From the NCBI GenBank assembly GCA_902535505.1, contig CACATS010000001.1, positions 1-64,000 of the forward strand: a DNA stretch of 64,000 bases, given 5' to 3'. Position 1 is the first letter of the stretch. Each line of letters starts with the position of its first letter. The translations under genes and the position numbers were made by a program. Shown here piece by piece: positions 12,532 through 44,185 of this stretch. The notes under the pieces are model-generated. The model worked only from the letters and a program-made list of their open reading frames with translations. It ran no database searches and was not told the DNA's origin. The stretch is from an uncultured Pelagibacteraceae bacterium (GTDB lineage Bacteria > Pseudomonadota > Alphaproteobacteria > Pelagibacterales > Pelagibacteraceae).

Positions 12532-13760
12532 TAAGAATTTATCAATTTAAGTAAATTTTGTTTTTTTCTTATATATTTAAATTTATTTTTATTAATTAAA
12601 ATTTCAGCGATTAAAGGTCTCGTATTATAGTTTGATGACAGTGAGGAGCCGTAAGCACCAACATTTGTAATTGCTACAAAATCATTCTCAATTAATTTTT
12701 GATATTTTTTGTAAACTCCAAACTTACAAGTGCTTTCACAAATTGGACCTACAAATTCTATTGCACTTTTCATTTTGGATGAATTTTTAGTTATAGGAAT
12801 AATCTTATGAAATGCGTCATATAAAGCTGGACGCATAAAATCATTCATACCTGCATCTAATATTATAAAGTTTTTATTGAGCCCTTTTTTTATAAATTGA
12901 ACTTTACTTACAAGTAAGCCTGTATTTCCAATAATGGATCTACCAGGTTCAAAAATAATTTTACATTTAAGTTTTTTTGCAAAATTATTAACTAATTTTG
13001 CGTAATTATTTAAATTTATTGGTTTTTCATTATCATTATAATTAATTCCAAAACCTCCACCCAAATCGACATACTTTAAACTTAATTTTAGTTCCTTAAT
13101 TAATTTGTTCATTACATTAAGTGTCTTTTTAAAGGGCCCATCATTTAAAATTTGACTCCCTATATGAACACTTAATGCCTCAAGTTTGATATTTTTAAAT
13201 TTATTTATCTCTCTTAGAAAAGACTTAAAATTTTTTATTGATAAACCAAATTTATTATCTGCTTTACCAGTAGATATATTTTTATGTGTTTTTGCATCGA
13301 CATTAGGATTTAACCGAAAGCCAATGGAAACTTTTTTTCTCAAATTTTTTGCTAATTTGTTAACTAATTTCGCTTCACTCTCAGACTCACAGTTGATCAA
13401 TAAAATTTTTTTATTAATTGCTATTTTTAACTCGTCCTCAGATTTACCAACTCCCGAAAAAACGATTTTTTTTGGTTTAATGCCTGCTTTAATGGCCTTT
13501 AATAGTTCTCCGCCTGACACAACATCAGCTCCAGCACCAAGTTTACCTAAAATTCTTAAAATATTTGTATTGCTATTAGATTTTGCAGCAAAACATATTA
13601 AAGGATTAGTTTTTTTAAATGTTTTTACAAAATTTAAATAATTAGAAACTATTTGATTTTCAGAATAAATATAAAAAGGAGTTTTATTTTTCTTTAAAAA
13701 ATTCTGGATAGATACTCGCTCCAGAAATAAATTTTTGCCTACATATCTTAAATTTTGCAT
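12531..13760 (-). CDS. lysA: Diaminopimelate decarboxylase
   Basis: CFAAKSNSNTNILRILGKLGAGADVVSGGEL; VDLGGGFGINY; EPGRSI. Confidence 0.95.
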   Translation of the reverse strand: MQNLRYVGKNLFLERVSIQNFLKKNKTPFYIYSENQIVSNYLNFVKTFKKTNPLICFAAKSNSNTNILRILGKLGAGADVVSGGELLKAIKAGIKPKKIVFSGVGKSEDELKIAINKKILLINCESESEAKLVNKLAKNLRKKVSIGFRLNPNVDAKTHKNISTGKADNKFGLSIKNFKSFLREINKFKNIKLEALSVHIGSQILNDGPFKKTLNVMNKLIKELKLSLKYVDLGGGFGINYNDNEKPINLNNYAKLVNNFAKKLKCKIIFEPGRSIIGNTGLLVSKVQFIKKGLNKNFIILDAGMNDFMRPALYDAFHKIIPITKNSSKMKSAIEFVGPICESTCKFGVYKKYQKLIENDFVAITNVGAYGSSLSSNYNTRPLIAEILINKNKFKYIRKKQNLLKLINS

Positions 13761-36891: not shown

Positions 36892-39800
36892 CTACAATTT
36901 AGATGGAAAATCTCTATCTTTATCAATTTTAAATTTTTTGATTGCACTTTCAGCCTTCTTGGTTTCAATTAACTGCTCTTTTGCTAGAGCACTTAATGTA
37001 TAGGCAACTATGTGTTCTTTATCGACTTCGAAAAATTTTCTTAGATTTTTTCTGGTATCACTTCTTCCATAACCATCTGTCCCTAAAGAGTAAAAAGGTT
37101 TTTCCGTGTAAGGTCTTATTTGATCTGAAAATGATCTAGTGTAATCCGATGCAGCAATAACTGGTCCATCTGTTTTTTCTAAACACTTTTGAACATATGA
37201 TTTTTTCTTTTTTTCATTTGGATTTAATAAGTTCCATCTCTCAGTTTCCATACCGTCTTTTCTTAATTCATTGAAGCTAGTAACACTCCATACATCAGAG
37301 TCTACACCATAATCTTTTGATAAAATTTCTGCAGCAGCAATTATTTCTCTTAAAATTGTTCCCGAACCTAAAAGCTGCACCTTAGTTTTATTCTTGTTGT
37401 TATTTTCTTTAAATAAATACATTCCCTTTAGAATTCCTTCATTGGAACCCTTTGGCTTTTCTGGGTGAGAATAATTTTCGTTCATTGCAGTGATGTAGTA
37501 GAAAATATTTTCTTTTTTCTCATGCATTCTTTTTAGTCCGTCTCTTAATATTACAGCCATTTCGTAAGCAAATGTAGGATCATAACTAATACAGTTTGGA
37601 ATATTCGATGCTAATAAATGACTATGACCATCTTGGTGCTGAAGTCCTTCTCCAGCTAAAGTAGTTCTCCCTGCAGTAGCCCCAATCAAGAAACCTCTTG
37701 CTTGAGAGTCTCCAGCGGCCCATGCTAAATCTCCAACCCTTTGAAAACCAAACATAGAGTAGAAAATATAAATCGGTATCATTTCTAAATCGTGATTTGT
37801 GTAAGCAGTACCAGCTGCAATCCAAGAAGACATTGCTCCCGACTCGTTTATACCCTCTTCTAATACTTGACCACTTTTATCTTCCCTGTAAGAACTTAAT
37901 TGTTCTGAGTCCACGGGCTCATATTTTTGACCTTCATGCGCATATATTCCTATCTTTTGGAAGAATCCCTCCATACCAAAAGTTCTTGCTTCGTCTGGAA
38001 TAATAGGAACTAATCTTGGTGATATATTTTTATCTCTTAGTAACGCAGTTAACATTCTAACTAATGCCATGGTAGTTGACATTTCTTTATCTCCTGTAGA
38101 TTTCATAAAATTATCGAAAATTTCTTTAGGTGGAGCTTTTATTTGTTTTGCAAAAGAAGATCTTTCTGGAATAAAACCACCAAGCTTTACTCTTTGAGCT
38201 TTTAGATACTTTATTTCTTCAGAGTTTTCATCTGGTTTATAATACTCAATGTTTTTTACCTGTTTATCAGTAAGAGGCACACCAAATCTATCTCTATAAT
38301 AAAGTAAATCCTCCTCATCTAATTTTTTTTGTTGGTGGGTTGTATTAATACTTTCACCAGATTTTCCCATACCATAACCTTTTATGGTTTTGGCAAGAAT
38401 GACTGTTGGAGAACCGGTATGTTGCATTGCTGAATGATAAGCTGCGTAAACTTTGTGAGGATCATGACCTCCTCTATTTAATCTCCATATATCTTTATCT
38501 GTCATTGTAGAGACCATTTCTTTTAATTCCTGATACTTACCAAAGAATTTCTCTCTTACATATAAACCGTCCTTCGCTTTAAAAGCTTGATATTCTCCAT
38601 CGACACATTCGTTCATTCTTTTTACAAGTAGGCCAGACTTATCTTTCATCAAAAGCTTATCCCAATAAGATCCCCAAATAACTTTGATAACATTCCAACC
38701 GGTTCCTCTAAAACTTCCCTCGAGCTCTTGAATAATTTTTCCATTGCCTCTAACAGGGCCATCAAGTCTTTGAAGATTACAATTAATTACAAAGATCAAA
38801 TTATCTAATTTTTCTCTTGCAGCTAGACCAATTGCTCCCATAGACTCTGGTTCATCCATTTCTCCGTCTCCTAAGAATACCCAAATTTTTCGACCCTCAT
38901 CTTTGACTAAACCTCTATTGATTAGATATTTTAAGAACCGAGCTTGATAAATTGCCATGATAGGACCAAGACCCATTGATACCGTTGGAAACTGCCAAAA
39001 GTCAGGCATCAACCAAGGGTGAGGATAAGATGAAAGACCATCTTTGCCAACTTCTTGTCTAAAACCATCCAACTGATTAGCTGTGAGCCTTCCCTCTAAA
39101 AAGGCTCTTGCATACATACCTGGAGCTGAGTGACCTTGAAAATAAATTAAGTCTCCACCAAACTTGTTATTTTTTGCTCTCCAAAAATGATTCATACCAA
39201 CGTCATACAATGTTGCTGCTGATGCAAAAGTCCCAATGTGTCCACCTAACTCAGAACTTTTCTTATTTGCCTTTACAACCATGGCAGCAGCATTCCATCT
39301 AATAATTGCTCTTAATTTTTTTTCAATATTTTGATCACCTGGGGATTTAGCTTCTGCCTCTGGCGGTATAGTATTTATGTACGGAGTTGTTCTAGTATCA
39401 GGCAAAACTAATCCTGATTTGTATGCTTGATCGATAACTTTATTTAATAGATAGCTTGCTCTTGGTGCACCATCAGTTTCAATTACAGAATTTAACGACT
39501 CTATCCATTCATTTGTTTCAATAGGGTCAATATCATCTTTTGAAGCTGGCTCTGCGAAAACTTTCTTAACCTGTTTTACGGGATTTAAGTTGCCATTTTT
39601 TTTAGGCTGTTCTTGAATTAATTCTTCTTTAACTTCTTCTTTTTTAATTTCTTGTTTTGGTGCAGAGGCTGCTTGACCGTTTTCTATAGTTGCTAATAAA
39701 CTTCCCTCGGATACTTTATCTCCAATTTTTACTTTTAAATCTTTTATTTGGCCCGCTGAAGGCGATGGAATCTCGACACTAGATTTATCGCTCTCGATTG

Positions 39801-39909
39801 TGACTATCGGATCGTTTTTATTTATTTCATCACCAGGTTTGACTAAAATTTCTATAACTTCGACGTCTTTAAAATCACCTATATCCGGAACTGAAATATT
39901 TTGAGCCAT
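36892..39909 (-). CDS. aceE: Pyruvate dehydrogenase E1 (homodimeric AceE) with N-terminal lipoyl domain
   Basis: N-terminal [45 protein letters not shown]; AceE signature [54 protein letters not shown]. Confidence 0.95.
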   Translation of the reverse strand: [1005 protein letters not shown]

Positions 39910-40154
39910 ATCTCTATTATAAACTGGAAGGAACATATAAAAAAGTTATTGAATAATAAACTAGAAAGTATAGCGCCTATTAGTTGAATAGTTCAATTTT
40001 TGACACATTTTTTGCCATTTTTTGTCACCTCTGAATGGTTCTATTAGTTATGAAATGGTTATTTAGTTTATTGTTCAAAAAGAGACAAATAAGAAGCAAT
40101 CAAGGTCAAATTGTTCAGAAATTTCTATTAAAAAAATATCTATTAAGGTAATTT

Positions 40155-40179
40155 CATAAGAGCTAAATTAGCTCTTATG
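40155..40179. promoter_or_regulatory. 25-bp near-perfect palindrome spanning the start codon of the acetoacetyl-CoA synthetase gene
   Basis: CATAAGAGCTAA-A-TTAGCTCTTATG; final ATG is the start codon. Confidence 0.85.
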
Positions 40180-42102
40180 AATGAACCATTGTGGCAACCT
40201 TCTGAAAAATTAAAAGAAAACTCTTTATTAAGAGATTTTTGTAAGTTTATAAATTTTAAATCACCGAAAAATTTTAAAGAAATTTGGCAATGGTCAATTG
40301 ATAATCCGGAGGAGTTTTGGTCAAAGTTTTGGGATTATTCAAAAATTATCGGAGTAAAGGGATCTGAAATAATAAAAAAAAATAAAGTTTTTAATAAAAC
40401 AAAATTTTTTTCTGACTCAAAATTAAATTATGCAGAGAATATTTTAAGAAAAAAATCTAATGAATTAGCTATAAACTTTCTGTCTGAAAAAGGTTTTGAA
40501 GAAAATATTAAATGGAATGATTTGTATGAAAAAGTTTGTAAATTCTCATCTTATCTCAAAAAACTTAACCTTCAAAAAGGAGATAGAGTTGCGGCTTACG
40601 TACCAAATAAAATTGAGTCTATTATTTGTTTTTTAGCATGTGCTAAGAATGGAATTATATGGTCTTCTTGCTCACCAGACTTTGGAGTTCAGGGTGTTGT
40701 TGATAGGTTTAAACAGATTAAACCAAAAGTTTTAATAACTTGTGATTACTATTACTACAATGGAAAAAAAATAAATATTCTAGATAAGGTTGACTTAATT
40801 CTCAAAGAGATGCCATCAATAAAAAAAGTGATTGCATACAATTATAACAATAAAGAAAAAGAAGATTTAAAAAACTTTATTAATTTTGAGAAGACTTTAA
40901 ATGGTAATTTAGATGAAATTTTTGAAAGATTCGATTTTGATCATCCCATTTATATTCTTTTTTCAAGCGGTACAACAGGAAAACCAAAATGCATCACCCA
41001 TGGGGCAGGAAATGTATTAATAGAACATAATAAAGAGTTTATACTTCATTGCGATATAAGAGACAATGAAAAGCTATTTTACTACACCACTACAGGCTGG
41101 ATGATGTGGAATTGGTTAGTTGGAGGACTAGCAACAGGATCATCAATTTTTCTTTTTGACGGAGCTCCAATATATCCAAAAATAGATGTTCTTCTTGAGT
41201 ATTGCCAGGATAAAAAAATTAATTTATTTGGTGTAAGTGCAAAATATATCGATCACCTAAAAAATGAAAAATATAATAGTAAGAAGTTAGATTTAAATTC
41301 TTTAAAAATTATTACTTCAACTGGCTCACCTTTAGCAGAGGAGAGTTTTAAATATGTATACAACAATATTAAGAAAGATGTTCACTTAGCCTCTATTGCT
41401 GGCGGAACTGATTTAGTCGGATGTTTGGTGCTAGGAAATCTTTTCTCTAATGTTCACAAAGGAGAAATACAAGGGCAAAGTTTGGGAATTGCAGTAGATG
41501 TTTTCACCGATGAAGGGAAAAGTGCTCAGGACGGAGATAAAGGAGAATTAGTTGTTAAACAACCTTTTCCTTCCATGCCAGTGAAGTTTTGGGGAGATGA
41601 CGATGGTAAAAAATATCACAAAGCTTACTTCACAAAATTTGAAAATATTTGGTATCACGGAGATTTCATTGAGAAAACTGATAAGAATGGATTTATTATG
41701 CGCGGAAGATCTGATGCTACATTAAATCCAGGAGGAGTACGAATTGGAACTTCCGAAATTTACCAGCAAGTTGAAGATGTAGATTTTATTACTGAGGGAT
41801 TAGTTATTGGCCAAAACTTTGATGACGATGTAAGAATTATTTTATTTGTTACTACCAAAGACAATCAGGAAATTGATGACGAAAAAGTAAGATTAATTAA
41901 ATCTAGAATAAGAAAAAACTGCTCTCCTAAACATGTGCCTGCAATGATTATTAAAGTTCCAGAAATACCAAGAACAAAAAGTGGAAAAATCGTAGAGCTG
42001 GCAGTTAAACAGATTATTAATGGTGAAAAAATTAATAATAAAGAAGCGATAGCAAATCCTAAAGCACTTAAATACTTTGAAAATTTACCACAATTAGACT
42101 AA
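40177..42102 (+). CDS. Acetoacetyl-CoA synthetase
   Basis: IYILFSSGTTGKPKCITHGAGNVL; YTTTGWMMWNWLVGGLATGSS; IAGGTDLVGC. Confidence 0.93.
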   Translation: MNEPLWQPSEKLKENSLLRDFCKFINFKSPKNFKEIWQWSIDNPEEFWSKFWDYSKIIGVKGSEIIKKNKVFNKTKFFSDSKLNYAENILRKKSNELAINFLSEKGFEENIKWNDLYEKVCKFSSYLKKLNLQKGDRVAAYVPNKIESIICFLACAKNGIIWSSCSPDFGVQGVVDRFKQIKPKVLITCDYYYYNGKKINILDKVDLILKEMPSIKKVIAYNYNNKEKEDLKNFINFEKTLNGNLDEIFERFDFDHPIYILFSSGTTGKPKCITHGAGNVLIEHNKEFILHCDIRDNEKLFYYTTTGWMMWNWLVGGLATGSSIFLFDGAPIYPKIDVLLEYCQDKKINLFGVSAKYIDHLKNEKYNSKKLDLNSLKIITSTGSPLAEESFKYVYNNIKKDVHLASIAGGTDLVGCLVLGNLFSNVHKGEIQGQSLGIAVDVFTDEGKSAQDGDKGELVVKQPFPSMPVKFWGDDDGKKYHKAYFTKFENIWYHGDFIEKTDKNGFIMRGRSDATLNPGGVRIGTSEIYQQVEDVDFITEGLVIGQNFDDDVRIILFVTTKDNQEIDDEKVRLIKSRIRKNCSPKHVPAMIIKVPEIPRTKSGKIVELAVKQIINGEKINNKEAIANPKALKYFENLPQLD

Positions 42103-42992
42103 AGATAATTGGCACAATTTTTGTGTAGCATCGAGTGAAGCTTTATGAGTTTATCAAAACTTTTGTTATATCCACCCCCAAGAACACCACACAACGGAAT
42201 ATTTTTTGAAAAAAAATTTTCTATAACAATTTGATCTCTTTTGTTAATTCCCTCATCAGTGATTTTAAGTTTTCCCAGTCTATCTTCATGATGAATGTCA
42301 ACTCCTGCAACATAAAAAATGAAATCATATGTGTTTTTATTAAGCTCCCTCAGGTTTTTGTTTAAAATATTAAGGTATTCTTTATCTTCCATATTATCTT
42401 TTAGCTCGATATCTATATCGCTTTTAGATTTCTTTGCAGGATAATTTGAAGCACAATGCATACTAAAAGTTAAAACATCTTTATCATTTTGAAATATTTC
42501 TGAATTTCCATTACCTTGATGTACATCTAAATCTAATATCAGGATTTTTTTTGCATATCCTTTATTTTTCAAATAATTAGCTGCGACAGCTGTATCATTA
42601 AAAACACAGTATCCCGCTCCTTGATCAAAGGTAGCATGATGACTTCCCCCAGCGGTATTACAAGCTAGCTTTGATTCCAAAGCAAGTTTACTAGCTAGCA
42701 CCGTCCCTCCGGTAGCAACGAAAGATCTTTTGACAACACTATCATTAATAGGAAAGCCAATTTTTTTCTGAGCTTTAATATCTAATGTCTTATTTTTAAT
42801 ATCATTAATATATTTAAGAGAATGAGAAGTTTTCATTGTTTCAACCGAACATTCTTCAGGAATATGAAATTTTTGAACTATATTTGTCTCAAGGAGATGA
42901 TTAGCTAAGGCACCAAACTTCTTAATCGGAAATTTATTATCATCATTTATTTTTGCAACATAGTCAGGATGATTTACTACGGGTAATTCCAT
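42099..42992 (-). CDS. Histone deacetylase/acetoin-utilisation-like deacetylase family protein
   Basis: GGSHHATFDQGAGYCVFNDTAVAANYL; ILDLDVHQGNGN; GVLGGGYNKSFD. Confidence 0.92.
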   Translation of the reverse strand: MELPVVNHPDYVAKINDDNKFPIKKFGALANHLLETNIVQKFHIPEECSVETMKTSHSLKYINDIKNKTLDIKAQKKIGFPINDSVVKRSFVATGGTVLASKLALESKLACNTAGGSHHATFDQGAGYCVFNDTAVAANYLKNKGYAKKILILDLDVHQGNGNSEIFQNDKDVLTFSMHCASNYPAKKSKSDIDIELKDNMEDKEYLNILNKNLRELNKNTYDFIFYVAGVDIHHEDRLGKLKITDEGINKRDQIVIENFFSKNIPLCGVLGGGYNKSFDKLIKLHSMLHKNCANYL

Positions 42993-43006
42993 TAAAAGAT
43001 AATATT

Positions 43007-44185
43007 TTATCTTTCAACACACATTGCAATACCCATTCCTCCGCCGATACAAAGAGTCGCTAAACCTTTTTTTACGTCTCTTTTAATCATTTCATGGATA
43101 AGTGTAACTAGTATTCTTGTTCCGGAAGCTCCTATAGGGTGACCCAAAGCTATCGCGCCACCATTTACATTTACTTTTTCGTCAGGAATAGAAAGAGTTT
43201 TTATAACTGCAATACTCTGAGCCGCAAAGGCTTCATTAATTTCAAAAAGGTCAACATCTTTTACAGACCAACCTGCCAAATCTAATGCTTTTTTTGAAGA
43301 AGGAATAGGACCAGTACCCATAAATGCAGGATCCACACCACAACTTGCCCAAGATTTAATTGATACCAGTTTTTGAACGCCACGTTTTTCTGCTTCTTTA
43401 CTAGACATTAACGTTACAGCTGCAGCACCATCATTGATTCCTGAGGCATTTCCTGCTGTTACTGTCCCATCATTTTTGAAAACAGGTTTTAATCTAGATA
43501 AAGCTTCTAAATTTATTCCAGCTCTTGGATGCTCATCTATATTAAAATCAATTTCTGCCTTTTTTGATTTAATTTTAAAGTTAACAATTTCCTCACTAAA
43601 CTTATCTTCTTTTTGAGCTTGAAGTGCTTTTTCCTGGGATTTTATGGCAAATTTATCTTGCTCGTCTCTAGTTATTTGAAATTTTTCAGCTACATTCTCA
43701 GCAGTCATGCCCATGTGGTAACCGTGAAAAGCATCCCATAATCCATCTTTAATCATAGTGTCTATTAAATCTGCATCTCCTAATTTTTTCCCATCTCTTA
43801 GATGGATTGCATGGGGCGCCAAAGACATACTTTCTTGACCACCTGCAACAACTATTTTGCTATCTTCAGAACTTATACTTTGAAATCCAGATGATATTGC
43901 TCTTATACCCGATCCACAAACTTGATTGACTATGTATGCAGGAACCTCTTTTGGAATACCAGATTTAATAGCTGCCTGCCTAGCTGGGTTTTGTCCTGTA
44001 CCACCTGTGAGAACTTGGCCTAGAACAATTTCATCTACCTCATTTTTTTTAACACCCGATTTACTTAAAACATTTTCTATAACACAAGCTCCAAGATCAT
44101 CAGCAGGAACATTTTTTAGAGATTTACCCAGTGAGGCCACAGCAGTCCTTACTGCAGAAGTTATATAGACATTATTTTTTTTCAT
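43007..44185 (-). CDS. Acetyl-CoA C-acetyltransferase (thiolase)
   Basis: [56 protein letters not shown]. Confidence 0.95.

Follow-up and report, generated by a model that had tools for sequence, protein, structure and literature searches.

The stretch of DNA analysed here (64,000 nucleotides, hereafter the window) comes from an AT-rich SAR11 genome (30% GC). The genomes nearest to it in the collection are single-cell genomes of uncultured Pelagibacteraceae; Pelagibacter ubique HIMB058 is among the relatives used. At the locus of interest, aceE (36892–39936, minus strand, TIGR00759) is separated by a divergent gap from a small, previously unannotated open reading frame on the plus strand (40050–40151, 33 codons plus TAA, MKWLFSLLFKKRQIRSNQGQIVQKFLLKKYLLR), which is followed by a palindrome, by the gene for acetoacetyl-CoA synthetase (acetoacetate--CoA ligase, AACS; 40177–42102, plus strand, 641 amino acids), and then by a convergent histone-deacetylase-family gene and a thiolase gene. 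The identity of AACS is given by its match to the equivalog TIGR01217 (770 bits against a cutoff of 521), with the AMP-binding domain matched as well, and the ATG at 40177–40179 is its conserved start. The aceE side of the gap (39967–40030) holds a promoter-like sequence on the minus strand, TTGAAC-18-TATACT, and inverted repeats (TTGAATAGTTCAA and TGACA...TGTCA) that are apparently conserved in close relatives.

The original prediction described a palindrome at 40155–40179 (CATAAGAGCTAAATTAGCTCTTATG) with two 12-base arms around a single central base, ending in the ATG of AACS. This description is exact, and perfect symmetry runs two bases further on each side, giving 14-base arms that span 40153–40181. 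The extended element is the longest mixed-sequence perfect palindrome of the window, the sole other one with 14-base arms being a pure A/T run; no second copy with up to three mismatches was found in the window, and none in dinucleotide shuffles. At the RNA level, a 10-bp stem with an AAATT loop had been expected, a fold that has to be replaced: the best predicted structure has 13 bp in its stem and 3 nt in its loop (−16.5 kcal/mol). Its 5' arm (TTCATAAGAGCTA, 40153–40165) starts 1 nt past the stop codon of the small ORF, the loop is AAT (40166–40168), and the 3' arm (TAGCTCTTATGAA, 40169–40181) holds the AACS start codon. None of 100 shuffled sequences folds equally well, and the hairpin persists when 200 nt around the palindrome are folded. 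We compared this fold with a background made up of the window and one 390-kb contig of a relative, taking the first ATG of each ORF as its start. Start codons in both are normally unstructured. The AACS start-codon fold is the most stable among 55 genes of the window (mean −2.0, SD 2.8 kcal/mol), and the AACS start of the relative ranks fifth of 355 (mean −1.6 kcal/mol). Shine-Dalgarno (SD)-like motifs are present at only 12–15% of the starts in these two sequences. The second most stable start-codon hairpin of the window belongs to the neighbouring histone-deacetylase-family gene (TGTTGAAAGATAAAATATTATCTTTTAATG, 42990–43019, minus strand, −9.2 kcal/mol). Its 5' arm consists of the last codons and the stop of the thiolase gene, and in relatives it is present, with varying stability, at loci in which the gene lies immediately behind the thiolase end.

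Conservation of the palindrome in relatives had been set beforehand as a check that could speak against it, and conservation was found; the cultured strain HIMB058 also has the element (L113, L273). Among 87 distinct leaders of the genus, the mean folding energy is −10.6 kcal/mol and the ATG is paired in 94%; the 41 leaders from other genera have a mean of −1.6 kcal/mol. A further proposed check concerned compensatory changes as opposed to plain symmetry in orthologous loci. In 38 distinct ungapped sequences, 93.5% of the cells are paired, and both partners have changed in 6 of the 11 pairs. Clear examples are the replacement of GAGCT/AGCTC by AAGCT/AGCTT, AAGGCT/AGCCTT (locus L077) and GTTA/TAAC (locus L217). 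Sliding the pairing partners against each other lowers pairing to 30–54%, and none of 500 shuffles is as good on any of five measures. Since the kinship of the sequences inflates such shuffle tests, we also ran a tree-aware simulation, in which the observed number of changes was placed randomly on a tree built from the flanking sequence (~390 nt). Here, 96.6% pairing was observed against 81% (SD 6.6) expected, and none of 1000 simulations reached the observed value. Judged by these sequence comparisons, the hairpin is maintained by compensatory change in the genus of the window. At L217 (genome G106, contig C19), the AACS gene carries several in-frame stops and the leader keeps a perfect compensatory hairpin, ATAAAAGTTA-CAT-TAACTTTTAT.

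Upstream of the palindrome, the leader alignment of the relatives revealed conservation at the protein level, M(K/R)WLINLLFKKK...IVQK.LLKKYLLR-stop, which corresponds to the small ORF. Its dN/dS is ~0.39 (77 sequences on a tree), compared with 0.37 for the AACS N-terminus and ~1.9 for the two wrong frames, and 168 of 300 changes fall on the third codon position versus 75 and 57 on the others. On these substitution patterns, the small ORF is coding and under protein-level selection. Of the 169 genomes of the genus, 121 contain a homologue, and a second genus has weaker matches, which lie in the gap separating aceE from a thiolase gene. Searches of the small ORF against Pfam and NCBIfam gave no match. 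The ORF is retained beside aceE also in genomes without AACS and hence has a role of its own. The annotation gains a conserved small protein from this analysis. Its stop codon lies 25 nt before the AACS ATG in the window, and this distance ranges from 16 to 26 nt across loci. The TAAGG that had been taken for an SD sequence (40144–40148) is the end of this ORF (...TTA AGG TAA), and AAGG is private to the window genome, the relatives having AAGA (65 of 78) or AAAA (12 of 78); being coding and unconserved, this sequence cannot carry the SD argument. An upstream extension of the AACS coding region was considered as well, as the frame before the ATG is open for ~10 codons in many genomes. We rejected it, since this frame lacks a usual start codon in the window and is interrupted by in-frame stops in L052, L053 and L122.

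Species differ in which of the two neighbours they have, and their comparison amounts to a natural experiment on what the hairpin requires. Where the small ORF and AACS are adjacent, the hairpin is found in 83 of 85 loci, compared with 1 of 45 loci with AACS but no small ORF and 0 of 20 loci that keep the small ORF but have lost AACS and have a convergent gene next; these counts come from related loci, are therefore not phylogenetically independent, and largely set one genus against others. Exceptions exist on both sides: L055 has the same synteny, has lost the small ORF and holds a weaker hairpin (−6.0 kcal/mol, not unusual compared with shuffles), while L056 and L123 have the small ORF and have lost the hairpin. 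Hence, the hairpin is neither a terminator of the small ORF nor a fixed attribute of AACS, but goes with the pair. Close gene pairs in general did not show start hairpins in the sequences examined, so that this is not a general SAR11 device for coupling.

Symmetry as such is predicted by a dyad operator in DNA as well as by a stem in RNA. That the element is the DNA binding site of an AACS repressor, as the original prediction offered as an alternative, would fit the near-perfect dyad in many species, and its position would be a fitting one for a repressor, provided that AACS had its own promoter inside the small ORF. Several features of the alignment favour RNA instead. Single changes in the core convert Watson-Crick pairs to G-U 18 times and to A-C 4 times, a preference that is modest after correction for the local mutation spectrum (p=0.024), the uncorrected count (p=0.004) being weakened by a C-to-T bias at neighbouring third positions. 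The spacing of the half-sites (the arm cores) is not fixed and varies from 3 to 8 nt, and the centre pair, relevant only to DNA symmetry, is not kept. In L044, L048, L057 and L108, where the ATG lies one codon later (16–19 nt from the small-ORF stop where measured), the arm sequences differ and the stem still reaches the ATG. Furthermore, the end of the dyad is locked to the ATG, no promoter-like site was found on the plus strand at the locus, and the genome holds no second strong copy, the next best having 2 mismatches and the pattern giving 10 matches versus 5 for a control pattern. We thus regard a DNA operator as distinctly unlikely. A regulon sharing the palindrome was rejected, as the pattern search in the genome itself stayed near the control level; a looser search of 61 genomes gave scattered matches with 1–2 mismatches, and among the matches listed perfect ones occur only at AACS. 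Covariation, together with a stem that follows the ATG, supports a predicted RNA structure hiding the AACS start codon, as originally proposed.

How might such a structure act? We propose translational coupling, in which the hairpin would block AACS as long as no ribosome completes the small ORF, and hold this reading with about even confidence. We infer that both ORFs lie on one transcript, that the hairpin represses AACS, and that translation of the small ORF relieves this repression. With the start codon buried in a stem of ~7 to 14 bp, 30S subunits could not easily initiate there on their own, notably in a lineage in which SDs are found at few genes. A ribosome finishing the small ORF would stop 16–26 nt before the AACS ATG, and its footprint and helicase activity may unfold the 5' arm and expose the ATG, which would then be available to a new or re-initiating ribosome; AACS synthesis would therefore follow translation of the small ORF. 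This suggests that making the small protein opens the way to AACS production. The locus has two features of coupled gene pairs, namely a co-oriented coding ORF that ends close upstream (the 33-codon ORF, 16–26 nt away) and a structure that covers the downstream start region (the predicted stem includes the ATG). The neighbour counts (83/85, 1/45 and 0/20), which are not independent, would agree indirectly with a dependence of AACS translation on that of the small ORF. According to a review (PMC12548453), coupling is compatible with structure that represses the downstream start, and with spacings of up to +25 nt; a library screen cited there found coupling lowered by structure immediately 3' of the stop codon, which counts against our proposal. 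The same screen speaks for the opposite role of a barrier, in which the hairpin stops ribosomes of the small ORF from re-initiating at AACS, uncouples the genes and keeps AACS low. A barrier would also account for the hairpin going with both neighbours, but a stem that includes the ATG, as in 94% of the folds of the genus, would block independent initiation too, which is needless for pure uncoupling, and we consider this role quite unlikely.

The hairpin could also be a translational switch that stands alone, be it an RNA thermometer or a site recognised by a small RNA or an RNA-binding protein, with the small ORF being incidental. The hairpin kept in L055 without the small ORF agrees with this, as does the spread of stabilities between species (about −16.5 to −8 kcal/mol), which differing set points might give. 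Such a switch, whether responding to temperature or to a trans-acting factor as originally suggested, does not explain why, of the 45 loci with AACS but no small ORF, 44 have no hairpin; nor was there a conserved unpaired binding sequence beyond the stem, or an Rfam match above chance, the single match scoring 20 bits against a gathering score of 80. A stand-alone switch thus appears rather unlikely, and coupling is the better specific reading because the hairpin is almost never seen without the small ORF. The element also lacks the conserved aptamer of a metabolite riboswitch: it is a single stem whose loop has 3 nt, and its unpaired positions form no conserved core. The position of the hairpin directly 3' of a stop codon would also suit an intrinsic terminator or attenuator of the small ORF, yet the stem is not followed by a T-run, a terminator-like site was not found, and the hairpin is absent after the small ORF in all 20 genomes that have lost AACS and have a convergent gene next; this possibility is highly improbable, and we rejected it. 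The small ORF could also be a sensor, its translation rate or stalling being set by a cellular signal and gating AACS via the hairpin. This reading is unlikely; if true, it would mean a metabolic attenuator based on a peptide, in an organism for which very few regulators are known.

Coupling by RNA unfolding is known from the MS2 coat and lysis genes, f1 genes VII and IX and E. coli rpmI-rplT (reviewed in PMC12548453). As in these systems, a co-oriented upstream ORF lies close by, the structure covers the downstream start, and an arriving ribosome would open it. The present case differs in that the upstream ORF is a conserved 33-codon gene without known family, and in that its short stem, placed after the upstream stop, encloses the AUG and not an SD. 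In translation attenuators with leader peptides, of the ermC and cat type, a hairpin behind a short ORF conceals the next start, an arrangement shared by our locus. Unlike such leaders, the small ORF is kept without the downstream gene (20 genomes), and is therefore not only a leader; moreover, no stalling motif was recognised in it, and one hairpin was seen here with no alternative fold. SAR11 bacteria count among the ocean's most abundant cells, and few transcription regulators are known in them. A start-codon hairpin held by compensation and tied to a small gene is a concrete and testable case of translational control in SAR11. Structured leaders of this lineage were surveyed by Meyer et al. 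2009 (PMC2704228), who described rpsB, ffh, SAM-V, pntA and rhtB elements. These are likewise compact cis-acting RNA structures, but the word 'acetoacetyl' does not occur in that paper, whose screen addressed GC-rich intergenic regions over 100 bp, and our literature search on AACS regulation in SAR11 found no report of the element. Altogether, the kind of device is known, while neither this example nor the small ORF linked to it appears to have been described.

Another strong start-codon palindrome was noted at locus L186 (~12727–13029; G002:C1:272727-273029, minus strand). This palindrome, TATATTGTTCAACAATTGAACAATATG, has a 12-bp stem and precedes a 100-amino-acid ORF that starts with MNNEDHFKILREIQNKPNST and resembles a small winged-helix regulator; it is possibly an autoregulatory operator.
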